NCBI GenBank assembly: GCA_037043015.1
Contig: CM073321.1
Coordinates: 36,482,420 to 36,546,419, forward strand
DNA from: Bryum argenteum
Taxonomy: Eukaryota > Streptophyta > Bryopsida > Bryales > Bryaceae
DNA length: 64,000 nucleotides
Reading direction: 5' to 3'
In this document: positions 5,396-56,830 of the stretch, one piece after another
Numbering within the stretch: the stretch's first letter is position 1
How the letters are laid out: the number at the start of each line of letters is the position of its first letter
Position numbers and translations under genes: made by a program
Notes under the pieces: model-generated
Database searches by the model: none
Told to the model about the DNA's origin: nothing
The model's input: the letters and a program-made list of their open reading frames with translations, nothing else

Positions 5396-6037
5396 TTGAT
5401 GAAACCACGTATGAATTATTTAGGCCTCTTCCGCTTTGTGCAACTGCGTATTACTCAATGTAGGCTTATGGCATTTACTTCTGTTGTCCTTAAGTTGAAG
5501 CTTCATATAATTATGGACAGTGGAGTGTACGCAACTTTCATTGACGATGCAGGGGCAGAGATGGAGGAGTTCGTGGGTTGGATTGAAGAAATACTTAAAT
5601 TAGAATACAGACACACATACGTCCTTGTTCTAGTTTGTTCATGGATTTAAGGAGGAATAGGAGGTGTTGTAGCAACAATGAAGCAGGATGAACATGGGTT
5701 TTTTTCCGTGAATTTCGCAGGTAACTACAAAGAACCTTTGGGTCCCTAATCATTTGTATTCCCCATTCACGTATATGAAGTGTTTTTTGTGTCCGACAAA
5801 GGCGCGTGGAAAGTGGTCTGCAAGGTTGATGTTCGAGGCATCCGTGGCGGTCGCGCCTTTACTAAAGGACATGATGCGGTTGCGCAAATCTTTAGTCCGG
5901 TTTCATCACGTGCCAATAACATGAACGCACATGGAACAGAACCTTTACGAGCGGAGGACTTCATAGTTAATGGGTCTATTGTAGAAAGACACGTAGAGCA
6001 GCAACGTAGAGGTGGTCGACGTGAGATACGTTACTAG
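5396..6037 (+). pseudogene. CACTA (En/Spm) transposase C-terminal fragment, DUF4216-like
   Basis: Read with interruptions, the frames give VYATFIDDAG, VGWIEEILKLEY and then, around 5680-5850, KQDEHGFFSVNF, FVFPIHVYEVFFVSDK and WKVVCKVDVRG. This order matches what I know of DUF4216 at the C-terminus of plant CACTA TNP2 proteins: an (I/V)EEIL strand, then 'DE.GF..VNF', then 'FV...QV.QVFFV.D...W.VV..' segments. At least two in-frame stops break it, after 'CSWI' at about 5650 and after 'KEPLGP' at about 5749. The catalytic DDE part is absent, so this is a decayed remnant. The CACTA assignment is inferred from motif order without a database search. Confidence 0.5.

Positions 6038-13044: not shown

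Positions 13045-13081
<37 letters not shown>
13045..13081. repeat. Poly(A) tract, 37 bases
   Basis: An uninterrupted run of 37 A lies just outside the left end of the 15.4 kb element. It could be a retroposon tail, a slippage tract or an assembly artefact. No retroposed gene is recognised upstream of it. Confidence 0.9.
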
Positions 13082-13117: not shown

Positions 13118-13127
13118 ATGGTCAACG
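13118..13127. repeat. Putative target-site duplication, left copy
   Basis: The 10-mer ATGGTCAACG lies immediately outside the left terminal inverted repeat. An identical copy in the same orientation lies immediately outside the right one (28511-28520). Mutator-like elements make 8-11 bp duplications, so the length fits. Confidence 0.75.
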
Positions 13128-13169
13128 GGATGTTGCTTAGATGTGAGCCACGAGCCACGAGCAACGAGC
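13128..13169 (+). repeat. Left terminal inverted repeat
   Basis: It starts GGATGTTGCTTAG and contains GTGAGCCACGAGC, which is an exact 13-base match to the reverse complement of the right end. Nine mismatches in 42 positions indicate an old or relaxed inverted repeat. Next to it (13168-13235) the motif AACATGTGAGC..CGAGC repeats about three times, as in subterminal repeats. Confidence 0.7.
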
Positions 13170-14046
13170 GAGAACATGTGAGCGGCGAGCAAGAACATGT
13201 GAGCAACGAGCACAAACATGTAAGCAAGTCACTGTTCACATGGAAAATTGTTTGTAAGTTCCCTAAATTAGTGAGAAATGAACAACTTTGTAGAAATTGA
13301 AACAAGAAATTAGTCTGTGAGAAAGGGGGCCTATAAGCGTGGAATATTGAAATTCAACGGTAATAGGGTATATAAATTGATAATTTAGGAATCCTTTAAA
13401 AACACATATATGAAAGCCATGAAATAAAACGTACGAATAATAAAAAAGGGACCACGAGATTTATCAAAGAGATAAAATATCAATAAAAAAAAATAGAAAA
13501 CACATAAGTTATGCGATAGAAAATTTTGGAATAAAAAATTGGAAATCAAAGATTATAGACAAATAGAAACAAAGGATATCAAACAGAGCAAATGGCAAGT
13601 CGAAGTAAAAAAAATAAATAAATAAAACGAAAAAAAATAAAATAAAAAAATACACGAAGACTTCCAGAAACAATAATAATGAAAAAAATCCAAACTACGC
13701 AAATACAAATAGAGGAACAAAGGACACATAGAGTATGGGGGAAAAATGAAATAAGAAACCCTTAAAACAAATAAGTGCATAAAGGTGAATATGCTACACA
13801 TAAGAGAATGGATGGATCTTCAAGAAACTAATGTGGTTATAGTATATCATATATAACAAGCTCGGGGAATGACGATATATTGAAGATTTCATACATAAAG
13901 GCAGTTCTCAAGTATATCAAATATATTAAAACCATATTAACACATAAGATGAATTGAATAATAACCAAATTGCTGCGTCATTATACTGCTACTTTAAGGT
14001 CTATGAATATCAACTTGCAGAATAGGCTTGCAGTAGTTTGAAGGAT
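13170..14046. other. Element interior between left end and transposase, non-coding
   Basis: After the short subterminal repeats to about 13235 the sequence is AT-rich, with A-rich runs (13440-13700). No supported gene is seen. It is probably the 3' flank of the minus-strand transposase. Confidence 0.5.
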
Positions 14047-17000
14047 TCACTCTTTCTCTACAATTCCATCAAGCTCTAGAATCTGCATGACCTCGTTGTA
14101 GGAATATGTAGGCTGGTGAATGAACTTCTCTGTCTCATAGTTCATCTTACATAAGTATCGGAAAACATAACAAAGGTGTTTGCAAGGCACCCACTTCCTA
14201 CTCGCTGCCTTAGAGCTCATACCTACAAAGTCTTCACAAGTACATTGTGGAATAGTGCACAATGAAACAAGGTATGCCTTGTCCTTGTCATTGACGATGG
14301 TGATGACCACACCACACCCCGGATTCGGAACCACAGTCACGCCAGTGATGTAGTATTCGTTCATGTGGCCTGTACTCATCCATCTATTTTTGTGATCGGC
14401 GCTAGGGGCATCTGGACTTCGACGACACTTCTTTCCGAACCTGGTACTGGGATGAGCATCCATGGGGTCGGGAGCATGGAATTGCGAACGTGGTATAGGA
14501 ATATTCACCTGAGATTGGAACTTTTGCCGGGGTGATAATGCTTCTTGTTGTTGTAACTGGAACCTGGCATCTTCGAGCTTCAGAACCTCTTCGCGTGTCA
14601 AATTGGTTCCAAACTTCACGAGCCAAGATAGAGGGACGATGGGCCAATCCAAAACAAATGGCCTTTTGCTACCCATAACACAACGATGAATGTCGTCCGA
14701 GCAGAAAAAGAACTCCGCTTCAACATTGCGACCCTTCCTAACATCTTCCTTCATGCCTGCGTAGGTTGGTGCTGGAGTGCCATGTGCTCCTTGTGAAATC
14801 TTGGTTCTGCACGCCTCCCTTGATATGGCTTGAAGCGCTTGACACTGCCTCCCCAAAGACTTGGGAAGTCGAGCAATGTGCCATTGCTTCGGATCACAGT
14901 TCGACTCCATCACCCTTGTGGTGTGAGAAACATGGTGTTGGAGGCTTTTGAGAGACTCCTCAATTCGTTGCTTGGTTGACCTAGTGTTTGGCTTGGAAAT
15001 GGAGTAGTTTACCTTATCCGGGCGATGTGAATCGAACTCAGACCCCGCCGGTAAATCGAGCTTCTTCTTTGTGGAACCAAAAATCTCAGCCCCTTCAAGA
15101 ATAATTGGATGATTTGGGAGAGCCCCAGCCCCGGAGAATGACTTCATGGCAGCGGCAATGAGTTTAGGACCACCGCTGTTTGTTGCTGCCCTTAGCATCA
15201 GAGCTGCTTTGTCAGGGCCCTTCCCTCCTTGTCCACCTTTGAGCCATTCACGATAGTTGGTGATCTGCATAAACGCTCGAACCATGTCGTCCACTGTTGC
15301 TTCATAAAGTGCACTCCATGGTATTGCCGGACTGCATCAACCACTTGTGATGGACAGACTCTGCTAGATTACATGAAGGCATGTCTGCACGTTGTTCCAA
15401 TGTCAAATCCTGCAAATCCAAATGATTTGTGAGTGTCTATTCAAGTGACAATGTGTCGTTTTTGTTGGAAGAAAGAACATGGAGAAAAGAAAATTGAACT
15501 CATCAATATCATTTGGCCGCCCCATTGCCTATATCGATGGTGCCAAAAACCCAACCATTCTGATAAAGATGCCAAACATTCTTCTCTTGCAGCGCCAGAG
15601 GTAGCCCACCATGCACAAATTGCATGGTATTTCTCGTCAGCCTCCATATGGATCTTTGCATCTCTATAATTTTGGCAAAGTTGCTTATGTTGATATTGCA
15701 ACTCTGGTTTGATGTACTTTGTGGTATATTTATCAAGGTTTGCAGACTAATGATAAAAGCAGGTACGTTCACGTCCCTCCATAGGCTCATCGGGTTTACC
15801 TGATCCATACACCTTCCTGACCGCAATCCAATTTGTTTGGGCACTATCCGCCATGAATCCTTTGAAGTTGACATTCAGGACGCCATTCTCGGCCATAACC
15901 TTGTTAAGGTTCTTCCAAAAGAGAGTCTGAGCAACCGCATCTTCAGATTGCATATCACAGCAGGCAATTGTCATTACCTTGCAGTAACTAGTGTCGTAGA
16001 CATGGCATGCCACGTCATCCACTCTTTCACTCGTTTGACGTTGTCAAACATAATCCATGCATCTTGGAGGTTTCCTCCCGCTCGCATACGCTTCACGAGG
16101 TCCACCCCACTCCCTTCCAGGTCCACAGACATCTTGAAAATGAACACCTTGTTGTCACATTGTCTCGGAAACCTATTCTCGTGCACTAACTTGAAGTGGG
16201 GATTCTTCTTGAGGTCGATATTCCCCTCCATGGGGGCACGTGAGGCTTCACAAGGCGTCTTGAAGCTGAGACTATATTCCTGCAATTAGGAGATGCAAGA
16301 GGGGCAAATCGATCCATGACTGATTCCGGACTAGGCTCCATTTCACCAGGGGTAGGAGTCTTGAAGAGAAACTCCGCAAGGAAGTTCTTACTCGCTGCCA
16401 TTTGTATAGCAAAGTTTGTTGCTTTTGGAGTGCGTGACACCTTAGAAGCTAAGAACTCATAAGTGAGATCTAAAGAGTCACGACATACTCCTTCAGCAAC
16501 TGGAAGACTATGACGGCCGAGATGAATAAATGCGCGGTGCAAATCAGGATTGGATGATGTGACATGGTACAGTTGGGCATCACAAAGTACTAGGCAAGAA
16601 GGAGGTCTTAGACAAACCTTACACATAAAGGCAGATTTTAGGGGAGGGGGTCCGCCGACTTGAAATTGAGAATAAGTGATACCTGTCCACTGTGTATTGT
16701 TTCGGAGACCACCATTTCGGAGAAGGTAGCCGCAGGAGTCGTTTGCACACTCTAAATGTCCGGCGCAAACAGAGCGTCGGAAAATGAGGGAGTGGTCGTT
16801 TCTGATGTTTGAGGTTTGGTCGTGCACCACGGTTTGCCGTCATATATCCTATCCATCCCGTCCAGGCTCTTGCCGTATGTTGTTGGCAACCCTGCTGGTA
16901 GAGGCGGAAGTAAGAAAATAACATCCCCGTTGTAAGTGGTGGGGATGTACTTGACCACTTCGACCCTGATGTTGTCGAAATCAATATTTGACAGTGCGGA

Positions 17001-17598
17001 TTGGGACCGTGGGCGGACAGCAGTTGCCTTCAAGGCATCTAACATGGAGCTGTGTTTGAGGGAGAACGTAGGACTACGTGGTGGCCTAGCTGCACTACTA
17101 GATGGAGTCCTCTGAAGTTGTGGATACTGATCGATCGAACAACATTCGATATTGGGGTTTGTTTGAAAGGGAATTGACTTGTGCTGGCCAAATCTACTGT
17201 TGGAACTATGTCATCATCTGAATCACTCAAAAGCGTAATGGGCATGGTGTCTTGTTCAATCTTCACTTGCACAGGAGGGGTGAGAAGAACTGTAGAGGTG
17301 ACAGAAGCGGGAGTGAGGGAGACTGTAGACCCATGCAATGCTGAGGTAGAAAACCCAAATACTTTAAATGACCCAAGAGCATCCAACCTTCTGAATCACC
17401 TTGCCTACTCTTCAATTGGAGAACAGTCTCCACTACTTCATTGATATCGGAGAGGATCTCCTGTTCAACATACATCCTCTCGATGTCAAGACCAAACTTA
17501 GCTTCTAAGATGGATTCGGTCACAAAGACATTGCCATCTTGATCAAGGAGCAAAGTAAAAGGAATACCCACACCGTTAGCACGAATGGACGCCATCAT
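14047..17598 (-). pseudogene. Mutator-like (MULE) transposase with SWIM zinc finger, frameshifted
   Basis: Cut-and-paste DNA transposase remnant. From the ATG at 17598 (MMASIRANG) the pieces run in order. (1) An N-terminal region contains ITLLSDSDDDIV, which resembles a SUMO-interaction motif. (2) A Cys-rich segment reads CAGHLECANDSCGYLL, then FMCKVCLRPP and CDAQLYHV. (3) The core has DVACHVYDTSYCK, IACCDMQSEDA, GFMADSAQTNW and RERTCFYH, matching the MULE DDE fold. (4) A C-terminal 415-codon open frame (14047-15294) ends in CTCEDF...CKHLCYVF, a CxC-CxH SWIM finger. Frame changes near 17390, 16800, 16280, 16020, 15750 and 15400 show that at least several indels broke it. Some may be introns, but no clean GT-AG set was found. 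It is divergent from the methyltransferase-like gene. Confidence 0.75.
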
Positions 17599-18446
17599 GA
17601 AATACAAGGAAAGAGAGTTTAGAACGCCCTGAAATGCAGAATACTCTCAAGGAGGAAGAATGTAATGCCAAACACCATATGCGGCTGAACACTTGATATG
17701 CGCAGTACTGATGAAAATTAGAGAATTGCGATGAAGTTGAGCGTCTTAAAGATGGAAACCAAGCAAGTAATGAATGAACTTGGTATGAATACTTCTACAG
17801 CCATAAATACAATAAGACTTGAATAAAGTATGATGAGTAGGCAATCGCCGTTAATAAGAAATATAACGGTATTGTCATTAAATCAACCACTTAGAATAGT
17901 GGTGGGTCGACGTTCATATTGATGGTGTAGATCACTAGTCTATTTTAATAAATGACCAAAGGAAACTATTTATGATGATTACAAAGAATGCCGCCGGATT
18001 TCGAAGGACTTTAACAACTTTAATAGGAAGTCGTGATGCTAAGGGATATCTTTAAGTGCGCCTCAAGTATTTAGAATGGTCAGATTATAGAGCTAGATAG
18101 TGGCGATTTTTTTTTTTTTGAATGAACAGTTCATACTTAAAGTGTAGGTTGACAAAGAGCCCGACAGCCATCACCTATAATGCGAAAGGGTCAATTTTTG
18201 ATGTGTTTATTACTAATTTAAAAAAAGTAGAATGACGATATTATACCCCGCCGTCTGTGAAGGATACTCATAATATAATAGAATATATTCGCATACTAAA
18301 TATTTTCATGGTGTTTGTCAGCAATTGATGCCATGTAGTATTCGACTGTGATAGAAGATGAGTGGAATGTTAAGGTATAGATTTAGAAGGGGGCTTCTTC
18401 AGTGCTCTTTAGTGCTCAAGAGAGTAGTCTTACATATTCCATACAC
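17599..18446. promoter_or_regulatory. Divergent intergenic region between transposase and plus-strand gene
   Basis: 848 bases separate the transposase start (17598) from the ATG at 18447. No coding frame is seen. The region is AT-rich with a T run at 18111-18120. By position it should hold both promoters, but no elements are assigned. Confidence 0.4.
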
Positions 18447-18854
18447 ATGAAGGAGGGTAAAACGTCCACTCCCTTGACTACTCTGAAACCTAGAACGAAG
18501 AGGAGGCGGGCGCGAACGGACTTTTCGTATAGGAAAGCGAGACAAAGGAAGGAAACACGTAGGATGGTAGAATTGGACAACAATATTCCAAGTACACCTG
18601 TAAAAGGTGGGGTAGGTGGGCCGTCTTTAGGTTTGAGATATAGAAGCATTCGTAATCTCAATCTAGAAGCCATAGAGGAAAGAGAAGTTGATTTCGTAGA
18701 GGGCAATATCGACGAGCATATCTGTGAAGGTGAAGCATTTGAAATGTCCGAAGGGCGTCGCCTAGAGTTTAAAGACAATCCCGAGTCAGCGTAGCCTCCA
18801 ATCAAAACTATAGAATCTCCGTTAGTAGAGATTGATGACTCTGATTCAAAAGAA
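18447..18854 (+). pseudogene. Probable first exon of the methyltransferase-like gene, with an in-frame stop
   Basis: The ATG at 18447 opens 115 codons: a basic stretch (KPRTKRRRARTDFSYRKARQ), then an acidic half with SLGLRYRSIRN. A TAG at 18792 interrupts, but the frame continues to VEIDDSDSKE and a clean donor GTAAGT at 18855 in phase 0. A 27-base mini-exon (VAPKTCVEE, about 18955-18981) ending at another GTAAGT could follow. The next confirmed exon starts in phase 0 at 23728, so these could splice together and give a basic/acidic N-terminus (nuclear signal and SUMO-interaction-like motif). The stop means this copy is broken, or translation starts downstream. Linkage to the downstream exons is inference. 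Confidence 0.4.
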
Positions 18855-20071
18855 GTAAGTCTTCATTATCATTTACTGGAAATCGTTCCGGAATCGTTTT
18901 AGATTATAACCGTTTAGAAATGTTTCTTATGTATTTAAGGTTCATATTTATTTGAGGTTGCTCCAAAGACATGTGTGGAGGAAGTAAGTGGACTATCTTT
19001 GTTGAGAAAATTCGACAAAAAAATTAGGTTTTCTCAGTGTGTATGTTAGTAATTTTTAAATGAGGAAGTGGAAAAAGCAGTCTCCCATCAAATCAGTCAT
19101 AACCTAATGTTTCGAAGTCAATGTGGTGGGGGAGATCTAATGTGCTCAAAGTAGAGTTCATACACATGTCTGACCAACCTTTAGAGTTCGCTCGAACTTG
19201 ATTGCGCTCATACTCGCCGTCTATTTCTCCATATGAACCAGATGACCGAAGGAGAAGGGTTTCGGATTACAAGGCACTTCGAAAGAGGTGGAGGGCGCAG
19301 GAGGAAGGGCGACGGGGTTCAAAGTGAGGTGTACAGCGGCTACGTGAGGCAAGGCTTCATCGTTGAGGGTAATGCGGAGGCGATGGGAGGTGATGGGAGG
19401 CCGACTAAGCGAGGCGGCACTGTCGAGGAGCAGGTGGGAGAGGACGACCGTGCGAGAGAGCAAGAGCAGGAAGGCGAGGACGAACAAGCGGATTGGGAGG
19501 AGCATGCGGACGCCGAGCTCATGAAGAATGGAGCCGATGAAGATGAGGGCAGCGGCGAGGTAAGTCAATACTCTTAGAAGATAATGCGACTGTAAAGGGT
19601 GGGGAGGGGTTAGATAGAGAGAGTTTGCGGCAGGTGAGCAAGAGGGAGGGGAGGGCAAGTTGGGTGGTGCGGTTGAGGCCACGAAGCGAGGTTGGTGAGG
19701 AGGGGTCTCGTCGTCGTTCCGCATTCCCTGCAGCCGGTTTTGGAATTGAAACCGACCCCGGAAACCCAGTGTCGGAGCAGACAGTGGGCCGAGAGGGCAT
19801 ATCCGGGGCTGTGTTGGCGTCGTTGCCGCTGGCCATAGCGGAGCTCTGTGCAATCGCCGTCCTGCTCAACATGGCAGGTAGCCGCAATCCCAGTTATCTT
19901 ATCTATTTTATGAGTTGGCTCTTGCATTACCGCGCTTCGTGAAGTCTCGTTGCTGCAAATGCTCTCACATCATTTACATTGTCAGGTAAGGGCATACCCA
20001 TTAGGTCTATTGTATCAAATGAAGTGTGAGAAGCTCGCTTGCTGAGAGGCTGAAGTTCCTTCGGTTTGCAG
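18855..20071. other. Intronic/captured DNA upstream of the CDKB fragments
   Basis: A GC-rich patch at 19230-19880 gives long overlapping open frames on both strands (up to 210 codons, minus), which are composition shadows. One copy of the hairpin repeat described at 21598 lies at 19765-19788 (one arm mutated). The sequence TTTATGAGTTGGCTCTTGCATT near 19909 recurs at 22841, so this block shares ancestry with the second hairpin array. Confidence 0.45.
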
Positions 20072-20490
20072 GCTTTTGTGTGTGGAGCATGTCGAGAAGA
20101 ACAACAAACCAATGCTCTACTTGGTCTTTGAGTACATGGATATTGATCTGAAGAAGTACATCGACGTTCACGGTCGTGGACCGGCCGGAAAGCTCCTTCC
20201 TCTCAAAGTTGTGCAGGTACTTGTCCCCATCTGAGGCTCAGAAGTTACAGTAGTATTCAAAAGAGCAACGATTGGAGGCTTTTTCTTGGATAATAATGTT
20301 CTTGTGTCGATCTTATTGCAGAGTTTCATGTATCATCTGTGCCCAAAAGGTTTGGCTCATTGTCATGGCCATGGAGTGATGCACATTGTTTGGCTCATTG
20401 TCATGGCCATGGAGTGATGCACATTGTTTGGCTCATTGTCATGGCCATGGAGTGATACACATTGTTTGGCTCATTGTCATGGCCACGGTT
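20072..20490 (+). pseudogene. CDKB: B-type cyclin-dependent kinase (CDKB) fragment, two exons
   Basis: Exon 20072-20216, flanked by AG and GT, reads LLCVEHVEKNNKPMLYLVFE then YMDIDLKKYIDVHGRG, the hinge and helix D/E region of plant CDKB, a mitotic kinase. After an intron with a GCAG acceptor, exon 20322 onwards gives SFMYHLCPKGLAHCHGHGVMH. Instead of the following HRDLKPQN, the last 38 bases are tandemly repeated about 3.6 times and the sequence then switches to an OPR fragment. The ATP-binding N-lobe is absent. It is therefore a captured and rearranged fragment, not a working kinase. Confidence 0.8.
20350..20488 (+). repeat. 38-bp tandem repeat made from CDKB coding sequence
   Basis: The unit starts GTTTGGCTCATTGTCATGG and ends GATGCACATT. 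Three full copies and one partial copy start at 20350, 20388, 20426 and 20464. The unit encodes GLAHCHGHGVMH just before the kinase catalytic loop, and 38 is not a multiple of 3, so each copy shifts frame. Confidence 0.95.
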
Positions 20491-20528
20491 CCATAACCAA
20501 GGCGTGTCCGACACGAAGGAGAACTGCC

Positions 20529-20848
<320 letters not shown>

Positions 20849-21494
20849 GCATGTTTCGTAAGAACTATACTAATATAAGATCATATGAACTGAATACATG
20901 CATCGGGCTCTTCTACAATTGCTGTTCGTCTTGAGTAGAAGTCCCTGACAAACAAGCCAGGGTTGTATATAAAACTGACAGAAAAACCCTGTCAGTGAAC
21001 GATTGGACTCCTTACTCTTCCATGACTTACTCTTAACGTGAATACAAATAATATATCTCTTACATATCATAATTCAATTGTTTCATAATCTTCCTTTTCA
21101 GCAACTTTTCTTTCTTTTGTACTCCCTTTCAGTCTCGCTACGTGCACTGCCTTTCACTCTGATGAAACGAAAGCGGCACGCAAGGCGCAGAATCCTCATC
21201 CCAAGAAGCAGTTTTCCTTCTTTTGTCTTTTAACGTCTGTGACTAGATGAGAGGTCAACTCTTGGAGCGAGGGAAGTCTTAATTATGTAACTTTTGTTAC
21301 TTTGCTGATAAACTTCAAATGGCTTGCAAGTTCACATCATAGTTGCTCGAACGAATGTGTTTTCGTTCACAAGTCCAGATAATTTCCGTTTTTCAACCAC
21401 ATTTTGTGCTGATTCTTGAAATCGGATGTTTAGGGTAGCTCTGATCTGTTTTGCTCGCTCTTCGTTGTATTGATTTGCGTAATTGGCGTTTCAG
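20849..21494. other. Non-coding spacer between captured fragments
   Basis: AT-rich, with no supported coding region. It may derive from OPR 3' flank followed by a CDKB intron, because an AG acceptor ends it at 21494. Confidence 0.4.
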
Positions 21495-21600
21495 GGATTC
21501 GAAGCCACAGAACTTGTTGGTGGATAAGCAAACTCGCCGTCTCAAGATTGCAGACTTGGGTTAGGTCAAGCATTCACCGTGCCGATGAAGAGCTACCGTC
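21495..21600 (+). pseudogene. CDKB: CDKB catalytic-loop exon, frameshifted
   Basis: After a TTTCAG acceptor the exon reads D-S-K-P-Q-N-L-L-V-D-K-Q-T-R-R-L-K-I-A-D-L-G, corresponding to the kinase DLKPQN catalytic loop and DLG (DFG) motif. The Leu of DLKPQN is Ser here. One T is missing after DLG (GGTTAGGTCAAGC), which creates a TAG. In the shifted frame the sequence continues GQAFTVPMKSY, the CDKB activation loop. It then runs straight into the hairpin repeat array. Pseudogene fragment. Confidence 0.85.
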
Positions 21601-21816
21601 ACCGAGCCTGCAAACCCACTGTCGGAGCAAACAGTGGGCGGCGAGCGCGAATCACCGAGCCTGCAAACCCACTATCGGAGCAGACAGTGAGCGGCGAGGG
21701 CGAATCACCGAGCCTGCAAACCCACTGTCGGAGCAGACAGTGGGCCGCGAGGGTGAATCACCGAGCCTGCAAACCCACTGTCGGAGCAGACAGTGGGCCG
21801 CAAGGGCGAATCCGGG
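21598..21816 (+). repeat. Hairpin-core tandem array 1 (about 54-bp unit, four copies)
   Basis: Each unit reads ACCGAGCCTGCAAA followed by CCCACTGTC, GGAGCA and GACAGTGGG, then a GC-rich linker (CCGCGAGGGCGAATC). The 9-base arms are exact complements around a 6-base loop. Copies begin near 21600, 21652, 21706 and 21760. Copies 1 and 2 have one mismatch in the stem. The reading frames through it are repeats without protein character. Confidence 0.9.
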
Positions 21817-21828
21817 GCTTGGAGAATA

Positions 21829-21893
21829 TTGTTCTTGTGTCGATCTTATTGCAGTGTTTCATGTATCAGCTGTGCAAAAAAGGTTTAGAGAGC
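21829..21893 (+). pseudogene. CDKB: Second copy of a CDKB intron-exon junction
   Basis: GTTCTTGTGTCGATCTTATT, GCAG and then TGTTTCATGTATCAGCTGTG duplicates the intron end and exon start at 20298-20342. It encodes FMYQLCKKG, closer to the CDKB consensus than the first copy. It shows that the captured kinase DNA was duplicated within the element. Confidence 0.8.
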
Positions 21894-22965
21894 AATACCA
21901 GATTTTTTTCCACTGGTTCGCTTGCAATGCAGATAATGGGCTGTGAGGTTGATTCGGTGTCAGCCTCTGTGTCGCATGTTGATCAAACTCTACCGCCTCC
22001 CAATAATTTGTTGGCTCTGATGTAAGTTCTTTTACCGAAAATCTGTCGTATCATTTGAGACTCTTGAAATGGGATTGGAACTTCATGCAAACTGATGCTT
22101 ACGACTAGATGCTAACGTTGTGATGCTAATCATTGTGATGCTTTTCTGTTCCAGACAATTATGGAACGGAAGTGCTGGAGTTGTCAATATCTGCTATTCT
22201 GCATCGACAAAAAAGGTACTAGTAATTTCCAGTTAGAATTGCTATTCTGACTTTTCCATAAACGCGATTGTTATGTTGATTTTTAGCTGTGACTCACGTG
22301 TGTAGATGTTCTGGAGAGTGGTGGGTTCCCTCGGCACAGTGGAGGCCGAACGCTTGGTGCAGAATGAACACCACGGTTACAAGGTAACGAAACCATCCAA
22401 ATTTCAATACAATGTTTCACTTTATGGCCTGTACTGTTCAAAAATCTTCGTCTTTCTTTTCTGTGTAAAATGTTTGAGGTTCATAACATTTCAAATATTA
22501 GACTGTGTTGTCCAGTTTTTAGAAGGCATATACTCAGATGCAAAACTCTTCTGCATGATGAAGGTTTTTTCTTCATTATGAAAATAAAAAATATAAACGC
22601 CGCACAATCTCTTCCTCAAATTGATGTCACCCTGTATAATTACCGTTTCGTTTCATTTCACTGCCCTCGACCTATGCATTTAATTATTGTTTAGACGTAT
22701 ATCAAGTCTGATTTAGTTATTGATACGCGCAGCTGACCTTGTCCGCAAGATGCCTCTCTTTAGTGGCGATTCTGAGCTCTAACAGCTCCTCCATATCTTT
22801 AGGTTTGATCCGATTGCTCCCTCGACCATGTTTCTTCTTTATGAGTTGGCTCTTGCATTTTGTGATGGAAAAGTCCTGGACTCATCGGCTGGGCATAATG
22901 TGTAGGAGGGACGCTTAGTGCAGCATGCAGTCTTCGGGGCCCAGTCAGGGTACCCCCCGTTTTGG
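21894..22965. other. Element interior, unrecognised exon-like pieces
   Basis: Two short stretches end in donor-like GTAC/GTAACG (22155-22215 and 22306-22384), but I do not recognise what they encode. From about 22841 the sequence repeats the block seen near 19909. No other feature is seen. Confidence 0.3.
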
Positions 22966-23560
22966 AATTGTCGCCGACCCTGGAAACCCACTGTCGGAGC
23001 AGACAGTGGGCCGCGAGGGCGACTCCGGGGCTGTATGCGGTCTCGTCGTCGTCACCGCGTTCACCCTCTTGGAACAGTTTTTGAATCGTCACCGAGCCTG
23101 CATACCCACTGTCGGAGCAGACAGTGGGCGTGAGTGGCGACCGGGTCAGATGCGGTCTCGTCTGCTGCCACGCGTTCACCCTCTTGGAACAGTTTTTGAA
23201 TTGTCACCGAGCCTCCATACCCATTGTCGAAGCAGACAGTGGGCCGCGAGGGCAAATCACCGAGCCTGCAAACCTACTGTCGGAGCAGACAAAGAGCCGC
23301 GAGGGCAAATAAGGTGTTGTGTGCGGTCTCGTCGTCGTCACCGCGTGCACCCCCTTGGGACGGTTTTTGAATCGTTACCGAGCTTGCTAACCCACTGTCG
23401 GAGCAGACAGTGGGCCGCGAGGGCAAATTTGGGGCTGTGTGCGGTCTCGTCGTCGTCCCTGTGTTCGCCTCGAGCAGCCGCTTTTGGAATTGTCACTGTG
23501 CCTGCAAACCCACTGTCGCAGCAGACAGAGGGCCGCAAGGGCGAATCAGGGGCTGTGGAC
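22966..23560 (+). repeat. Hairpin-core tandem array 2 (longer unit)
   Basis: The same CCCACTGTC-GGAGCA-GACAGTGGG hairpin occurs near 22988, 23104, 23393 and 23509. Degenerate copies lie near 23219 and 23271. Here the hairpins are separated by about 115 bases including GGTCTCGTCGTCGTCACCGC and a CACCCTCTTGGAACAG-type segment. The 233-codon plus frame and several shadow frames are products of this array. It lies about 170 bases upstream of the first confirmed exon of the methyltransferase-like gene. Confidence 0.85.
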
Positions 23561-23727
23561 CTTGTCGTCGTGTTCGCGTTCCCCCTTCCAAGCTCAGCCA
23601 GACCGTGCTATATTTTTATATATTGATTTACTTCTGTAGAATGGTTCTCACATTATAGACAATACAATGTGGCTTCTTTTACTATGCTTTCAATTGTTTT
23701 TAATATTCTGTTGATATTCTCTTTTAG

Positions 23728-26700
23728 GAGTCGTCTCATCGCATCACGGAGATCAAAGACCATGCCCAGATTTCGAAGGAAAGTGAGGTATTTAAAGTGA
23801 TTCGAACTTTAGAATTCTGTGGAGTGGTACATTTATAGCTTCAATTTTCTTTCCGTTCACTTAACTTCTTTAATCGCTTGGTCATTAAAAGGCGCACATG
23901 ATTTGGTCATGTGGCTCAACGAATCTGAAATGAGACTTTTATTAACACTTTTATTAACGAGATGATTTCGTGATTCTTTCAGTATGATCTTCTCTAATGT
24001 TTTCACTTTTCGAAGAGTTGAGATTCAATATTTAATTGTATAATATTTGGCAGGAATTTCAAACTCAAGACGTGTTGCCAGCAACTTCCTGTCCCATTGA
24101 CTTGAACAACGCTCTTGAAAGTGAAGTGCGGCATCGAACACAACACAAGGTGGATTCAATCAACGTCCTCAACAGCCTCCGAATTCAACCCTTGAAGAAG
24201 TCGCGGTTGCTTGTTCCCTTGTGTCGGATGATATCAATGGCCAAGGTGGGGCCAATTGGTGAAATGGGAATACAACATCTCAAGAGGGATTTTGTGAAGG
24301 GCTATCGAGATGGAGACCGTGTCATGTACATTTCTATGTACAACAACGAGGAGTTGTCATCGGATGTTACAGACGTGGTTAAGTCTTGTTGGAGCCCACT
24401 TTGGCAATCAACGAACCAAGCTTACGAAGAAGAGCTTCAAGGTGATTATGATCTACGGCAATTCTCTGGAAAGATGTTCTTCGTTTGGGAAGGTAACCAT
24501 CGCCTCCATGCATGGTTAAGACATATTAACAATCATCATGGCGAGGACCCGGTTTGGCACATCTCTGTGCATTGCATTCTTTTAGATCCCCATGGCAAAA
24601 TTGGCAACCTTCTTCATGCAATGCACGATATCGACTGGTAAGTATGTACCCCTTTCTACCTCTTACTTTTCATCCACACTCTTGAATGCGAGGTTTGTTG
24701 TAATACCAGTATTGCTAATTATCTTTTTTTTTGTGTAGGTCTACTGAAAATGATCACGTGAAGAGTAATCTTCTAGCAAAGCTTTTCCGCATCCGATCGT
24801 TTGGTCCGATGAAGTTGGAGGAGTTCAGGGATCTCCTCACTCCAGATGAGTACCGGATCTGTTTGACTAACAAGCCATCTAATCCGAGATGGTTTTCATT
24901 GACAACAAAAATATTCATTGCGTTCCTTTACCGAGTAAGTATTCATTCAATACTTTGTTATCATTTGTTCCGTAGATGTATGCATTGTCTGAATTCGTTT
25001 TAATTTATTTTCGTTTTACAGCGGAAGGTTGCGGCAACTTTGGATGACGCCGCTAGGGCATACACTGAAAAAGTACCCAAGGAGGATCAAACTGCTACTG
25101 GAATTTGGGAAGCGATGACGTTGGCAGCGGATAACATGGTCGATTCCATTAAGATGAAAGATTTCACCAAGTATTTGGCCATCGCAAATCCCAAAAATGG
25201 CGTCGACTTTCTTGGCGAGGTGAGACTCTTCACACTACTACAGTAGTTACATTGTTTATAGTTTACTATCACTCAATTTATCTACATGGTTATGTGATGT
25301 TATTCTTCCGGATCAATCGGCATTTTAGTGAATTTCAAAAACCTGAGATGATACTTGATAAGCTCCAGAAGATTGTTCCCGCTAATGTGGAAGCCAAATA
25401 CAAAGCGCGTTGGCTAAGGTGGTGGAACTCTTCCCCTAGTTCGGGGGTTTCGTATAGATTTCTCCCGCCAAAATTCAAGGAAGCCGACCTCGACCCATGG
25501 TTGAACAAGGCTGCATTTTGGGCGGGGGTATAGTCTTTCAAAACCATTATTGTGATTGATATCTTCTAGCTTTTTGTATTTTTTCATCTCCTTGACCACT
25601 CTAAGTAATTGAATTGCATCTTCTAGTTGGAGGAAGCTGTTATATGTGAGTTCGAGGACATATGCAAGGCGGAGAAGCTCACCATCAATTGGAAGGCATC
25701 CCCAGACGTTCAGCGACCAGATGCTTATGTCGAAAGTTGGCGTATCCTTTTATGGGAGAAGGCCTTTCCAACGTTTCTTGGTCCTCGGCCTCAGAAGGTT
25801 TTTGATAAAGAGTGCAAATTCAGCAAATTTCCGGGAACAGCTGAGGTTGTCAAGAAGAATACGTACCGGTATGATTACTAAGACTACCTCTTCTGCATTT
25901 TAAACCTATTCGTCTTCCTAATTCTGTTACCTTTTTATAACTATAACAATGTCTTTGTAATTGTTCAGGTACTTCAAGGGGGAGCTAATTCCGAAAGGAG
26001 CCAATGATGTTCAGGAGCTCCCAAAGTACTTTGCGGCATGGATTCAGAAAGGTTCAGACTCGTGTATCTACACTGCTGTTCAGCTGAAAATGTTCAAACC
26101 ACCACATTTAGAAGCCGGGTGCTGGTACCTCGTTTGTAATCTTGGATTTGTCATTGATTTTGAGGCGGAAGTGAAGTCTATTCATGATGGCGGAGTGCAG
26201 TTACTGGTAGGGGTCAAAGAATCTGTGCAAGTTATAGAGGACGACGACGTACAGCAAGATCAGTCATCTGCTCCACCGCCAAAGTCTAGGAGAGGGCGTC
26301 GCTTGCGCGCTGCTTCAGAAGCGGCTCATCCTACGCAACCTCGAGCATCGGAACAAACCCAGGCGGAGTCCACCGCGCATGGGCCGGGGCAAAGCACAGA
26401 GTCGCAATTGCAAATCCTTAGTTTACCTTGTCCCTTTTCTTCCACCGTGCCTTCCTTGGTCAACGCATTAGAGTCTTCCAAAGGTCTCATTGAGCAGAGG
26501 AAGGCAAAGCAAATTCCCATGACTACCTCTTCACCCATGATTCCAAATTCGGCCGAGATTTTTATCTCCAACAACTCGGTGGAGTCATTGATGACTTCGC
26601 ATTTGAAGAACTACCAGCTCAACGGTGGTGATCTAAGAAGGGTTGAGTTTCAAGACTTCATTCGCAAGGTACGATGCAGAACTTTGACTGGTCTTGTGTG

Positions 26701-28123
26701 TTGGAGTTATTTGAACATTCTAAAGTATAACTTGGCTTACTGCTTTCTTTCAGGTTGGAAAAGGTTGCCAAACACAAGTTTCGTTACATTGCATCAATGA
26801 GAAGCATTCTGGGATCGACTTTATTATTGCCGACATCCCTGAGAATCTACCCATGCCAACAATTCTTACTCCGTCTTCAACAGTTCCGTCTTGGAACTCA
26901 TGGGAAGTGTGGTATGTGGAGTCCATCTTTGAATTCGCAAGGATGTATTTGCAGAATGATGGCGCTCTCCTCCTTTTCTACTGCGATGATCGAGACCTCT
27001 TTACGGAAGTATTCGATTTGGCTTATAGTTACGACTTTGTTATGGCCAAAGACTGGTGGGGCATCAACAAACTAAGTTTGGCTTCTCCAAGGGATCCTAA
27101 CTCAATGGTATTGTTCCGCTTAACTATTTCTTGATCACGTTTTCATAGTCTGTAGTGATGTTTTTTTTCCATGCTTCCTTACATCTATGGGTGATTGCAG
27201 TCTATTCGGTTCTGGATTCACCTCTTCGTTCGTGGTGGCGACGTGACATCCAAATTCTCCTTCTATACTGAGAATTGCGAAATGTCCAATGGTTTTGTTA
27301 ATCTCACAAAATTTGATGCACTCTTTAACTTTACGAAGACGGAGACTCAATTAATGAATAGAAATGTTCCATGGACAGGACCAAGAGAGAAGGACCCTTT
27401 GTTTCTGCGGATACTCATTGAGCAGCTTACCAAGCCTGGCGATATAGTCCCCGACTGGAAGGCAGGAACAGGTAAGCATTGACTGATTAGGTTCGTATTT
27501 TGTATCATCTCGCATTCCGTATTGAGTCTCATTTCCCTTTCTAATTTCATTTTTCTTAATTACAGGGGCTACCATTAAGGCTTGCCAGCTTATTGGTGGT
27601 CATGTATTGGCGTTTGAAGAGGACGCTCTTATCTTCAACGCACTTGTAGCTCCATATGTTGCGCGAAAACCACTCTTCGTGCCTCCTCGCCATCCCAGAC
27701 CTCCAGCAACCGATGAACCGCGCACCAAGAAGCCAAGGCGCAACCGCTTTGATTGTAAGTAAGTCTTACTCTAAATTTCATATTTTTTGTTTCCTACCGT
27801 CGTTCTTTATATGCATCTATTCGTACTGTTATTAACCAGTATTTGGTTGATATTGCAGTGTAGTTGCATCAACACAACTTCATCTATCAAGACCCCAACC
27901 CATTCCATCGTGGCGTTTGCACTCGAGTCCGATTCAAGCATATGTTCTTCTAGAATATGCTGAAGATTTAGCACAAGCGTTTCAGTCCCGCGTCGTTAGA
28001 TATGTTCCTAGTCGAGCCGCTACTTGTGATCCTAGGACCCTTGTGTTTATGGATACAGAGGCTGTAGTAGGAGATTCTGAGTTCTCGAGATCAGAGAGTA
28101 GTGGCGATTATAGCATCTCTTGA
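23728..28123 (+). CDS. ParB-like / DNA N4/N6-methyltransferase-like fusion gene, 11 exons
   Basis: Exons 23728-23787, 24054-24637, 24739-24934, 25022-25219, 25348-25527, 25627-25868, 25969-26668, 26754-27107, 27201-27471, 27566-27758 and 27859-28123 keep phase across GT-AG introns and give 1080 open codons. The acceptor at 25348 is the least certain. Residues about 75-180 end in FVWEGNHRLHAW, like the GxHR motif of ParB/sulfiredoxin-type domains. A middle part holds PKSRRGRRLR. Residues about 700-985 follow the beta-class order of DNA methyltransferases: DFIIADIPEN (747, DPPY position), a strand NDGALLLFY, AKDWW, then LTKPGDIVPDWKAGTGATIKACQLIGGHVLAFEED (motif I and acidic end). The catalytic DPPY reads DIPE and the usual DPF reads DWK, so activity is doubtful. 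The true 5' end is uncertain. Function is unknown. Confidence 0.75.
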
Positions 28124-28468
28124 GTTTGAACGTCGTTTCCGACATTTGTTGTTTTCGTTTGATTTGATATGATTTGATTGGATTTGATTATGTATCGCTT
28201 CACATCTTTCTTTTGCACACTTCTAGCATAATTGTACTGGATCATCAAGGTTTGTTAATGGATTTAGAATTTATGTTCTTAGATTTGTCCATGGTAATAG
28301 GTGTTATAATTTTTACTTCACTACAAACTCAAAATTGGTCTCCCTAAATATAACCAGAATCTTCTATTCATAATATCTTACATTCCGAAAATCCACGGTC
28401 ATAGGCACTCTTGGCCAAAACTCTTTTCTTCTTTTCTCCATTAAGTTAAATCGGTGAGCCTGCTCGTG
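28124..28468. other. 3' flank of the methyltransferase-like gene
   Basis: AT-rich and non-coding. It runs from the stop at 28123 to the right inverted repeat and probably contains the 3' UTR. Confidence 0.5.
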
Positions 28469-28510
28469 GCTCGTCGCTCCCTGCTCGTGGCTCACTTCTT
28501 AGCAGCTGCC
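28469..28510 (-). repeat. Right terminal inverted repeat
   Basis: The reverse complement starts GGCAGCTGCTAAGAAG then GTGAGCCACGAGC, and matches the left end at 33 of 42 positions. GAGCCACGAGC-type motifs repeat inwards to about 28453. Confidence 0.7.
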
Positions 28511-28520
28511 ATGGTCAACG
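28511..28520. repeat. Putative target-site duplication, right copy
   Basis: ATGGTCAACG, identical and in the same orientation as 13118-13127, starts at the base after the right inverted repeat. Confidence 0.75.
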
Positions 28521-29804
28521 CCTCGTGAGAAAAGCAAGAGACTTTTAGGAAATAACTAAGTTTAGAAAAATTCAATGTGTCATGCCCTTAGTGTCAATGT
28601 GTGCATTTTGTCCCAACTAAATAATAGGAGCCAAACGAGGAACCAAAATCATTTGTCATAACAATAATAATTGTGAAAACGAGAAATAGAAATAGAAATA
28701 TACAAGGTGAATCACAATTGTACAAGCTTTTATATTAACACGACACCAAACATCTAAAGGAGTATGGAGCTCACTTGTTGGACTCCTATGCGTTTTCCAA
28801 GTATTCAACCTTCCACATGATCTTAGCAATCTCTATGGAAAATTGAAATAAAGAAGTCAATCGTGTCACTAAGTGACAACAACATAAAGGTAGGTACCAA
28901 AGGGAGGAGACCACAACAACAAAATAGGGGCAAAGAGGGACGAAGGGGCCACCAAAAAAGAAGGTACAAGGGGTTCAAAAGAGCCAACCAGAAAAGAGGC
29001 ATGGGGAGGGGCGAAAGAGGGCAAACGCTCACCTTTACTTATCTTTCAAATAATGTTTCAAGCAATATGTACATATGGGTCCCGTGGGATGAATTGCCTT
29101 GGTAGCCAACTTTTCCAATGTTTTCCCAACGTGTGGGGGGCAAGGTTAGCAACTACCATCCTAGACTTGTATTTTATTGTTTCTCCAATAAATTGTAGAT
29201 GAGGATAAATTAAGAAAAAGAGAGAAAAACACCACCTAAATTTCAATGTATATATCAGTAGAGGAAGATGAAATACTAAACTAGGTATACAATAATGAAC
29301 CTCTTGGCAAGCAAACATGTTTTTGTAATATGATCCATAGTTAACCCCTGAAGGAGAAGCTGAACAAGAGTACATCCGGACCGCCATATCTAGTATTCAC
29401 GAACAACTTTCTTTTGGGTTTGAATTTGGAGAATCCAACCATGATAAGATCTTGCATACAACTATCTAATTAGTCCACCCACCAATTAATTTTTAAATTT
29501 TCATCAAATTTCTAAATAAATTTAGTATGGATCTTGAGATAATATTGAGTCACAATCTTAAATTTTGTAAAAACAACATATCTTTCTTAAGCAAATCGAC
29601 CCAATTGGGGCTTCTCTCCTCTAACCATGGAACATCGGAGCCCATCACCGTGGATGATGAGGAAGTTGGAAAGATGTTTTTGGATGATAACATGTTGTCT
29701 ATTGTCGAGTATCATGAAATCTCAGAGTCATTCATTGGACACTTTGTCTTCACTTCGACGTTCTAGAGTTAAGGGTCAACATTTTACCAAAATTTATTTC
29801 TCAA
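28521..29804. other. Gene-poor DNA
   Basis: Small frames (28863-29105, 29527-29766 plus; 29058-29387 minus) have no recognisable domains. No repeat array or RNA gene is seen. Confidence 0.4.
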
Positions 29805-35880: not shown

Positions 35881-38800
35881 ATGGCACGTGCTTTGTCTAC
35901 CATTGATAATTTTCTAGATGTCAATGTTGATAGTGTTGGATCAATGTGCATCCAATGTCCAAAATGTTTGGCATTTCGTTTTAAAAAAGAAAAAATACCA
36001 TTTGTTGTTACAATGGCAAAATTGCCAATGAACATGTTAATCACCCAATTGTCCATCCAATGCTCAATGAGCTTTATATGGGCACTACACCTAAATCTCG
36101 AGAGTTTATTAAATATATTCGAAAGTATAATCAAGCTTTTGCATTTACGAGTATGAGAAGTAAGTTTCAATCTAGCCAAGTTGAAGGTAGAGGGGTATAT
36201 ACTTTTTGTAAACGGAGAATTATGCCACCACATTGGAAATTTACAACCCGATTTAGACCAAGGTGCTAAATTTGCACAAATTTATTTCTTGGATGATGGT
36301 TTACAAACGAATCGTCGTATGGAGATTTTTGATGATCTTCATCGTGATACTCTTAATAACATTCAAGAAGTTTTAGAATCCGTAAATGCATTAGTTCGAG
36401 GTTTTAAGTCTTCGCGTGATGTTCTTCAAAGGGGATCAAACATGGGACTTCGTATCTCCGGTGAAGTTCCTTCTGGAGAACATCCCCGTCGATATAATCG
36501 CCAAGTACTTCCGAAGTTCTTGCTATTGTTCTTGATTTAACAAGACATGAATTTAGGTAGAGATATTATTCTTCACCAACACGGTGGAAATTTACTACGA
36601 ATAAAAGAAATTCACCCAAACAGAGACGATGCTTTATCCTATCCTTTGTTATTTCCGAGGGACAATGTGGATGGTCACCGACTTTTAAAGCAAATCTTTG
36701 GAGTGACTTTAAAGTCATATGTCCAATATTTGCTTCAAAAGCGGCCGGAATCTAATGTACTACATAGGGTGGTAGATTATTCCAAAGAATATGTGGTAGA
36801 TCAATATTTACGTGTAGAACATGAAAATTTGTTATTCATTAGACAACATCAAAATGAACTTCGTGCGAGAATGCTATCGGGGATTGTAGATGCTTTGCGG
36901 GAGGACAATAGAGCACGCATTGGGCGTCGCATTGTCTTACCCGCAACATTTATTGGCTCCCCTCGATACATGCAAAAACTTTTTCATGATAGTATGGTTT
37001 TGGTTAGAGTTTTAGGAAAACCCGATTTGTTTGTGACAATGACGTGTAATCCGACCTGGCCCGAGATTCTTAATGAGCTTGAACAGGTCAAAGTCCTCCA
37101 GATCGTCCGGATGTTGTTGTACGTGTTTTTGAACTTAAATTAAAAACTTTGATGGATGAGATTACCAAGAAGAATGTCATGGGAGAGACAATTGCTTTTT
37201 GTTACACTATTGAGTTTCAAAACGTGGTCTTCCTCATGCACACATTCTTCTTTGGTTAAAAGACAAGGTCAATGATTGTCACCTTATAGATAGAATAGTA
37301 TGTCTTTGAGATTCCCGATTTAGATAGACAACCTCAATTGTATGCCGCAGATTTGCCAAACATATGATGCATGGACCTTGTGGTTTGGACAATCCCAATT
37401 GTCCATGCATGGAAGACAATAGTAGATGTACAAAAACTATCCTATGCAAGTTCGAGATACTACCGAGGTAGATGGTGATGGTCATGTTTTTTATACCGTC
37501 GTCGAAACCAAGGTCGATATGTCGAGAAACGTGTACATGGACAAATCGTTCGCTTAGACAATCGATGGGTTGTACCATACAATCCATATTTGATAGGTCG
37601 ATTTAATTGTCACATTAATGTGGAAATTTGTAGTTCGGTAAAAACAATCAAATACCTCCACAAGTATATTTTTAAAGGTCCAGATCGTGGTATTGTAGAA
37701 ACAGGATGAAGTTGTAGATGAGATTAAAGATTTCTTGGAAGGTCGTTATGTGGCCGCCAAGAAGCATGTTGGAGACTTTTTGGTTTTGAAACTAACAATA
37801 AGAGTCATAGTATTTGTCGTTTACCCGTTCACCTTCCCTGGTCAACAATATGTTACTTTTGAGGAGGCAACATCTTTGCAAACGGTGATTGATCAAAATC
37901 TTTGAGACTAAACTCACTAAGTTTTTTGAGCTCAATCGCCACATTCGTGCCTTGATTGCTTCCGCAATCAAGGCAATCATATGCTTCTTCGTTACATGGA
38001 TCTTCCACTCCATTACAAGTGGGATGTGAAGAAAAACATGTGGGAAAGAAGACTACGTAATATTAAAGTTTTTGGTAGGATAAATATGGTTCCCATGGGT
38101 ACCAAGTATTTTACTTACGTTTGTTGTTGACTCATGTTGAGGCACCAACTTCATTTTTATGACCTACTTTGTTTTAATGGTATTGTGCATTTAACGTACA
38201 AAGCCGCTTGTATTGCAAGAGGACTTTTACATGATGATATTGAGTGGGAAAATTGTCTACAAGAGGCAACTCTCATTGCGTTGCCTAAGCAAATTCGGCG
38301 GTTGTTTGCAACACTTCTTGTGTTTGGACAACCACTAGATCCTCTTAGTTTATTAAGGAGTCATCTTGATGCTATGTCGATGATTGGCGCAATGATCAAA
38401 ATCGCTATTGCAAAGCGATTTTGTCCATTGAAGAATATTTGTCATCATCGATAAACATCTTCTGATTTTTTAATATCGAAGAATTGAATGAGTTTGGTTA
38501 TCCAAACATTGTTGATGTTGGTAGTGATACCAATGACAATATTGATTTTGATAACCAAAACATTACTTTTCTAGAAGAGGATGTAGGTAGACTCAACGAA
38601 GAACAAAACATTGTTTTTAATGCGGTGACCTCTCTTTGTTTTAAATTCGATTCTTCAAATAGGCTTTTCTTTTTAGATGGTCCGGTGGTACAGGTAAGAC
38701 TTTTTGTATAACACCATATTAGGTTATCTTCGTGGTCGTAATGTCAAGTGTATGGCAATGGCAACAAGTGGAATTGCCGCATGCCTTTTGAATGAAGGGC

Positions 38801-55179: not shown

Positions 55180-56830
55180 GGACTTAGAGGCTTTCGTCAA
55201 TCTAGTTTTGCCGAAACACTTAAAGAATTGTCTCGCTTCCAAGAACCAAATGGGTGACCAAATTTATGAATCTTCTCAATTACGGAGAAGACCTTGTTGC
55301 CAGAGGTATTTGTCAGAGTGTGGACTCCAAAAAAGTTCAAAAGTCTAATAACGCGCCATTAAGTGAAGACCAAGTGGTTGTGCAGATCGTAAAGTCCTTG
55401 AATTTGAACTTCATACCTGCTTCATATACAAAACAAGGAAATGGAAACTTAGTCATGCCATGCACAAGAGGTGGTCACTACTTAATCATTTACATGTTGA
55501 TGAATACTACGCTGCTATTTATGCCTGCGATCATCCAAGGAGAAAGGGCTTTGCTGGTATGAGTTGGGGCAATAAAATCCTCGCTTCTTGAGGACCAAGA
55601 GAGAAGAGGAGCTACTAATGTTGGAGTGTGTCAACTTTGTTGCGAGCAAAGTATCTTGCTACAATCACTGTTGTCAATATTTTTAATGGCTCTACAAAAA
55701 CAGATGTATGAGGCTTTAGATTTTGAATCTAAGTTTCAATTCAAGATAGATGTCCATTATCGATTTCATCAGGCAATCGACGGGAGTATGATGGTAACCA
55801 CTAAAGGCAATGACGTTTGTGTGCCTGCATTGCAATATATCAGTGGAGTTCTTCTTTGAACGTTCTATAGGGGGAAGGCGGAAGCTGAGGCCAAACTACA
55901 TGCTCGCCAAGATGGGAACGTTGGTGAGAAGAAACCTCGACTGCATGTAAAGCAAGTTGTTGCTAATTTGAGGATATTCATCAATAGTGCTATTGATGCT
56001 AAGCCTCTTAAAGCAAAGACGTTGACAACTGGTGACAAGGTGGTAGCGCAGACCTTGCCGACATCTTTCAAATAGAAGGATGCTATTCTAGGTATTAATA
56101 TTGTCAACGAGAATTTGGGCATAAAGTTTATTTCCCAGAGTACCCGTAGCATGATCAGGAAGGAAAAATTCTCGGAATACTCAAAAAACGCGCCAATGGA
56201 CAATTTTGCTCGTTGCTCCTTCTATGACCAAACGGAGAAATTGATCAAGTTAATGGTATCTGGGTCATGTCAACGCGATATATCGATGAAGAACTTAGAA
56301 GAGCATTTTAGTCACCAGGAAACTCATCGCCAATACTATTACATGGTGTGTTCTCTTTCTATCCAAAAACCAAAGAATGTCATTTGTATAATACACGACA
56401 AGATGGATCATGCAAAGACTGCATACCCTTTGTTTTCAAACAAGACAAAAGCAAATGATGCACCGATAAAGCTTCCGATTGTGGTCACCAGCATGATTGC
56501 TCACAAGCATAGCTATGTTTGGTACGCGCATTATGGGCTCGATATCTATCGAAGTAATTGCAATCACACAATTGAATCAATATTGCAGCTTCTTCAAAAT
56601 CTTAAAGGAGTTCCTATTTCTTCTTCAAAATTCTTATTTGCAAATTGAGGGTTGTGTCTTATATTTGAAGCGGTATTAACTGGAAAAGAACGGTGTTCGG
56701 TCGCTCTTCTTCCACAAAGTGAAGTTTCAGGGATGACAGAGCCTCTACCTCCTATCCAACAAGTGCAACTCGACAACGCACCTTCAAACACAAAGAACGA
56801 TTCATGTTTTGCTTCTGGTCTCCTCTAGTA
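55180..56830 (+). pseudogene. DUF7869-like DDE transposase family member, broken
   Basis: Pieces align in order with the intact minus-strand protein at 57946-60237. FQFKIDVHYRFHQ and GNDVCVPALQYISG (55730-55855) match IKLDVHRQFHTNG and GIDVCPLAWMQIMG. NFARCSFYDQTEKLIKL, HDKMDHAKTA and WYAHYGLDIY (56200-56550) match NFARCSKCDEFDSLMKL, HDKMDHSKTA and RYAHFGLDIF. QVQLDNAPSNTKN (56760-56800) matches NVQMDNAVSNNKN. Stops and frame changes occur near 55565, 55859, 56072, 56646 and 56826. The VGHTHDDID end is missing. Its substitutions show a separate lineage, not a recent duplicate. It faces the intact copy tail to tail. Confidence 0.85.

Follow-up and report, generated by a model that had tools for sequence, protein, structure and literature searches.

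A ParB-like and methyltransferase-fold accessory gene kept by selection on a provisionally MULE-like transposon in Bryum argenteum

Proteins that join a ParB-like domain to a DNA methyltransferase domain have been described from transposons of algae. The accessory protein of Sola1-1_Ec32 in Ectocarpus comprises 1104 amino acids with a ParB-like and an N4/N6 methyltransferase domain (PMC12477816), and cases in green and red algal transposons are attributed to Iyer, Abhiman and Aravind 2011 and to Petroll et al. 2025 (cited in PMC12477816); the passages of that paper on these proteins propose that they bind and modify their own transposon. TET/JBP genes, reported from fungal DNA transposons (PMC12730594), likewise place DNA-modifying enzymes on eukaryotic DNA transposons, but the chemistry is opposite and the enzymes are unrelated. 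Here we analyzed a ParB-methyltransferase gene in a 64,000-nucleotide stretch of Bryum argenteum (contig CM073321.1, positions 36,482,420 to 36,546,419; hereafter the window), where it is carried by a 15,383-bp element (13128-28510) that we provisionally regard as a Mutator-like element (MULE)-like DNA transposon. A preliminary description of this DNA knew of no earlier account of the arrangement; that it is undescribed is not supported, since the same domain pair was published in algal transposons (PMC12477816).

As described in PMC12477816, Sola1-1_Ec32 resembles the present locus in protein length, domain pair, a gene strand opposite to that of the transposase and a giant DNA transposon as carrier, but it belongs to the Sola-1 superfamily and is 21.5 kb long, and the sections that describe it report neither palindromes nor motif IV. 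The green and red algal proteins, likewise compared by description, are similar in domain pair and transposon setting (PMC12477816). No land-plant or MULE case of a ParB-methyltransferase gene appeared among the literature titles and abstract openings. The MULE-like carrier, the site arrays and the motif IV sequence are additions to the known kind; site arrays and motif IV may also occur with the published proteins. CcrM and other beta-class DNA amino-methyltransferases (6pbd, 1g60, 8urk, 1boo) are similar to the C-terminal part of the protein in fold, motif order and motif I with its acidic residue, whereas the window protein has DxPE instead of DPPY, a ParB-like fusion and a spliced gene. 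Bacterial ParB/Noc and KorB share the fold and the GxxRxxA-type motif of the N-terminal part; they have palindromic parS-type sites, to which the repeated palindromes near the present gene are an analogy.

Reconstruction of the gene from the window letters yielded 11 exons with 1080 codons plus a stop and GT-AG at every intron (Table 1), as the preliminary description had stated; an acceptor at 25329 for exon 5 was rejected, since it breaks the frame and 25348 is needed. Alignment of 17 of the 19 other loci fetched (the partial L022 and L025 were omitted) revealed that the splice dinucleotides were retained with few exceptions, and that length differences common within subfamilies were multiples of three (exon 7, -6; exon 10, +3; exon 11, -39 or +3). 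The ratio of nonsynonymous to synonymous substitution (dN/dS) between subfamilies was 0.18-0.30 overall. It was 0.229 for both window-L027 and window-L028 (about 1050 codons), pairs with an intron identity of 58-60% (58% in window-L027), 0.192 for L015-L027 and L012-L027, 0.194 for L023-L027, 0.179 for L024-L028 and 0.227 for L015-L023; comparison of the window with L023, L024 and L026 gave 0.276-0.301, with introns 73% identical in window-L023. A value of 0.193 was obtained for L012-L015, the only two of the 17 copies that, besides the window, are fully open. At the level of sequence, these ratios show that the gene is under purifying selection across element subfamilies. Against the gene model stand the 12 of 17 copies that carry one or more frame-breaking exon indels and the three that are truncated. 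Compared with four near copies, the window gave a dN/dS of 0.51-0.78, and its motif I reads VPD where the 11 other rows shown have VLD; on both counts the window copy itself is drifting. The reading of the exons as chance open frames in an artefactual gene model, to which we give virtually no credence, is contradicted by the kept splice sites, the dN/dS values, the copy alignment and the metagenome relatives, which mostly end at or just past exon 2; conserved splice sites and dN/dS dismiss it, and for exons 2-11 the selection test refutes it.

The 11 exons of the preliminary description are therefore real, but they contain no start codon, and the gene probably starts at an upstream exon at 18447-18854. 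This proposed first exon (408 bp) was present in L060-L063 and L066, five loci of the diverged subfamilies, and open in L062, L063 and L066, and its own frame had a dN/dS of 0.40-0.64, compared with 0.76-1.40 in the other two frames (six pairs). Both it and the exon at 23728 are in phase 0, and splicing from 18854 to 23728 is inferred from phase alone. Its basic stretch, KPRTKRRRAR in the window and TPKRRRKRG in L063, looks nuclear-signal-like. In the window, this exon is interrupted at 18792 by an in-frame TAG.

A search of the same genome with 22500-29500 returned at least 84 matching pieces, a lower bound because 31 of 153 candidates were scored; several were near full length at 92-96% identity, and others were at 78% and 72-73%. 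Twelve of the 19 other loci stop at query positions 6011-6014, corresponding to 28510-28513 in the window. Inverted repeats at 13134-13169 and 28469-28504 give the element ends GGATGTTGCTTAGATG... and ...CTTAGCAGCTGCC, and in the window and 10 copies fetched for their ends, the exact flanking direct repeat was 10 bp in 7 of 11 and 9 bp in 4 of 11. The region upstream of the gene (13500-22600) recurs together with it in the genome: among 24 copies with the left part, counted by hand, 22 had the methyltransferase exon no more than 75 kb away, and the other two, which lie on C8, retain only 3' pieces of the gene. The inverted repeats, the target-site duplications and the co-repeated upstream sequence bear out the earlier statement that a spliced gene lies within a DNA transposon. 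Target-site duplications of 8-11 bp are a hallmark of Mutator/MULE elements, and the ends, the 9-10 bp duplications and the CxC...CxH SWIM-like motif of the transposase fit the assignment to MULE-like transposons, which is provisional. This motif and a D..D..E-like stretch were seen by eye; copy L055 contains transposase open reading frames (ORFs) of 807 and 447 amino acids that match the window piecewise, and the longest single transposase ORF per locus was 406-807 amino acids at ten loci, most of which appear damaged too. In a comparison of the transposase with Pfam, nothing was above cut-off, and at E<=5 only GT-D appeared, below its cut-off and at chance level. Within the element, 20350-20485 holds 3.6 tandem copies of a 38-bp unit at 98%, and a run of 37 A bases lies at 13045-13081, just outside its left end.

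MULEs capture genes, and on this general knowledge the gene could be a Pack-MULE-like passenger, that is, a captured host or bacterial gene without function for the element. We disfavour this explanation as very improbable: the subfamilies examined retain the gene, with the same exon edges, its protein sequence is under selection, and algal transposons of other superfamilies carry this domain pair as well (PMC12477816). The gene is instead shown to be an accessory gene of the element, kept by selection across subfamilies and coding for a protein of ParB/sulfiredoxin fold and beta-class amino-methyltransferase fold.

Fold comparison placed the N-terminal part of the protein in the ParB/sulfiredoxin-type nucleotide-binding fold and the C-terminal part of the same protein in the beta-class N4/N6 amino-methyltransferase fold, with motif IV preceding motif I; both agree with the preliminary description, which had read a ParB-like N-terminal part and a beta-class methyltransferase in permuted order. 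Domain alignments contained 38 methyltransferase and 55 ParB relatives from metagenomes. The motif GNHR[LVH]xAW was found in 45 of the 55 ParB-domain relatives; a CTP-type switch resembling that of bacterial ParB would be a prediction for this domain; no helix-turn-helix or C-terminal dimer domain was identified, with residues 215-590 left unfolded. In the methyltransferase domain, the S-adenosylmethionine (SAM)-binding motif I reads VLD..AGTGA with a following FEDD in sister copies, and VPD with FEED in the window. The canonical motif IV of active beta-class enzymes, (D/N/S)PP(Y/F/W), is absent from the window protein, in which this motif is DIPENL, as in 10 of the 11 other copies shown (the remaining one has DIPQ). 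Among the metagenome methyltransferase relatives, D.PE[NG]L was found in 30 of 38 and DPP[YFW] in 0 of 38; P0011 contains [DNS]PP[YFW] elsewhere in its sequence and DIPEGL at motif IV. The earlier reading of a DxP motif had rightly put motif IV first, but missed that the catalytic motif is DIPE and not DPPY; it also overlooked the palindrome arrays and the size of the gene family.

Protein searches of the genome scored 150 of 903 first-look candidates with exon 8 and 150 of 1112 with exon 2. Among the matches listed (E about 6e-22 or better and 2e-48 or better, respectively), approximately 30 and 28 were in or near the element family of the window (>=65% identity), and the remaining matches, about 120 per search, were at 40-56% identity. 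Several ParB and methyltransferase places were paired 2.5-2.7 kb apart on one strand, as judged by eye. Locus L067, in which the exon order is identical, is a member of a separate family of at least 20 copies; upstream of one copy of this family (C1:17971267-17974984) lies a tandem array with a unit of about 351 bp. Searching the genome with PF01555 gave two exon-sized matches only, G000:C7:9878472-9878624 and L070 (G000:C4:20498001-20500600), the latter being a third, distant family with DTPF at motif IV and a nearly canonical motif I. The full-length protein as query gave no match, probably owing to the exon size of the metagenome relatives; these mostly stop at or just past the end of exon 2, and P0044 continues through the intron into exon 3 sequence. 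Two short patterns, which a distant relative could escape, found no relative in IMG/VR viral contigs or in a prokaryote genome collection.

METTL14 and MTA9 are pseudo-enzyme platforms for their partners, and the methyltransferase domain described here may similarly be catalytically dead, a SAM- or DNA-binding platform in a protein that would act as a ParB-like clamp or silencing blocker and not as a writer. The motif IV counts in the window, its copies and the metagenome relatives argue for this possibility, as does the persistence of the altered motif while the whole gene is under purifying selection. However, the motif I region is still conserved (GDIVLD..AGTGA, FEDD), DxPE could be a changed active site, and the divergent L070 has an aromatic DTPF in the same genome, so that the line descends from enzymes; on balance we consider a dead enzyme rather unlikely. 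Since the catalytic-motif change is common to most relatives and kept by selection, it raises the question of the role of a methyltransferase fold without DPPY.

Ten copies (<=3 mismatches) of CCCACTGTC-GGAGCA-GACAGTGGG lie between the transposase and the ParB exon, in arrays that sit in the proposed first intron; the same scan of the rest of the window revealed 11 scattered inverted repeats of other sequence. With any central six bases, CCCACTGTC-6-GACAGTGGG occurs 120 times in 258.8 Mb and the reversed pattern 0 times; of the 50 occurrences listed, 37 fell within copies and the other 13 were no more than 2.9 kb from truncated ones (intervals entered by hand). The outer flank and the arms are unchanged in L063-L065, but between the arms the six central bases are inverted. 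The five loci examined of a diverged subfamily (L059-L062 and L066) contained no CCCACTGTC-type site and carry 4, 1, 1, 1 and 2 perfect copies, respectively, of AGCTTTCGG-2-CCGAAAGCT, which has 14 sites genome-wide (control 0), 14 of 14 inside copies.

We tentatively suggest, with somewhat less than even confidence, that the ParB-like domain loads on the palindromic arrays which the element carries ahead of the ParB exon, within the proposed first intron, that it probably uses a CTP-type switch to do so, and that it then spreads over the element. The methyltransferase-derived domain would mark the covered DNA by methylating adenine at N6 or cytosine at N4; should the change in motif IV have abolished catalysis, it would act by SAM-dependent binding alone. 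The element could thereby identify copies of itself and maintain their expression in the face of host silencing, or control its own genes. This mechanism follows the proposal made in the passages of PMC12477816 on algal transposons and adds candidate binding sites. A bolder version, which we hold to be unlikely as a whole, is a partition-like self-recognition in which a ParB-type clamp, fused to a remodelled methyltransferase, loads on the element palindromes inside its own gene, spreads, and marks or shields the element, protein and sites codiverge into incompatible pairs (CCCACTGTC... versus AGCTTTCGG... subfamilies), and DxPENL represents a class of the methyltransferase fold that is new and lacks DPPY. 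The contrast in conservation between the 24-mer (0.97-0.99) and the 45 bases on each side (0.60-0.90; four groups of 10, 46, 15 and 11 sites) is overstated, since the sites were chosen by likeness to the 24-mer, and the members of an array do not count as independent sites.

The palindromes may also be unrelated to ParB and serve as transposase-binding sites, promoter or enhancer, or insulator, or be repeat-expansion hairpins, with the ParB-like domain acting elsewhere. Their position, with the divergent transposase gene on one side and the ParB exons on the other, would suit such roles, as would the binding of MULE transposases close to element ends, and the tandem units of 53 and 115-118 bp resemble the product of ordinary repeat expansion. 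On the other side, the left-end repeats differ in sequence (GAGCAACGAGC), the palindrome core is better conserved than the surrounding unit, and its central six bases occur in either orientation against the same flank with constant arms, and we regard this explanation as rather unlikely. Because the genome holds over 20 copies of a single element family, whose subfamilies differ in their palindromes, as well as at least 120 other relatives, the specificity between protein and site is testable by pair swapping. Transposon-borne DNA-modifying or DNA-marking enzymes bear on the escape of elements from silencing and on the origin of eukaryotic writers of N6-methyladenine and N4-methylcytosine.

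Table 1 Features of the element and its ParB-methyltransferase gene (window positions)
Feature	Position	Strand	Basis
Left target-site duplication ATGGTCAACG	13118..13127	.	identical 10 bases at 28511-28520
Left terminal inverted repeat, begins GGATGTTGCTTAGATGTGAGCCACGAG	13128..13169	+	end common to 10 other copies
21-bp tandem repeat with GAGCAACGAGC after left inverted repeat	13159-13227		
Transposase gene, broken here, several frame changes; C-terminal CxC...CxH SWIM-like motif	14047..17646	-	position and motif only
Proposed first coding exon: ATG, basic KPRTKRRRAR stretch, phase-0 GTAAGT donor	18447..18854	+	found in five other loci
24-bp palindromic site, CCCACTGTC-6-GACAGTGGG type	19765..19788	.	
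Four 24-bp palindromic sites, 53-bp spacing (21615, 21668, 21721, 21774)	21615..21797	.	
Five palindromic sites with <=3 mismatches (22987, 23105, 23220, 23391, 23509) and one with 4 (23273); 115-118-bp and 53-bp units	22987..23532	.	
Exon 1 of earlier model	23728..23787	+	window reconstruction; splice sites compared with other copies
Exon 2: ParB/sulfiredoxin-like domain, motif GNHRLHAW (residues 167-174)	24054..24637	+	reconstruction, fold comparison
Exon 3	24739..24934	+	reconstruction, other copies
Exon 4	25022..25219	+	reconstruction, other copies
Exon 5, acceptor at 25348	25348..25527	+	reconstruction, other copies
Exon 6	25627..25868	+	reconstruction, other copies
Exon 7: end of middle region, low-complexity linker, start of methyltransferase domain	25969..26668	+	reconstruction, other copies
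Exon 8: motif IV DIPENL (residues 747-752), NDGALLLF	26754..27107	+	reconstruction, copy alignment
Exon 9: GPREK ... PGDIV(L/P)DWKAGT, first half of motif I	27201..27471	+	reconstruction, copy alignment
Exon 10: remainder of motif I and acidic residue after it (FEED/FEDD)	27566..27758	+	reconstruction, copy alignment
Exon 11 including stop codon	27859..28123	+	reconstruction, other copies
Right terminal inverted repeat	28469..28510	-	inverted repeat and other copies
Right target-site duplication ATGGTCAACG	28511..28520	.	matches left duplication

An Rfam scan of the window returned no family. Elsewhere in the window, an ORF with a Helitron_like_N domain, part of a Helitron, is located at 36541-37143 (+), and an 810-amino-acid ORF with DUF7869 (PF25273) at 57946-60378 (-), with a similar-looking shorter ORF at 56076-56648 (+). 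The contig G000:C12 (114,600 bp) is the host plastid genome. Its psbA encodes a D1 protein with a short C-terminal tail, whose best matches among 53 in the PDB include chains of land-plant entries (7oui, 8c29, 3jcu), ahead of Chlamydomonas 6kac; on this evidence the host is of the green lineage and probably a streptophyte. At a distance of 9 kb from psbA, the contig has a D1-like match of 30% identity that is probably psbD.
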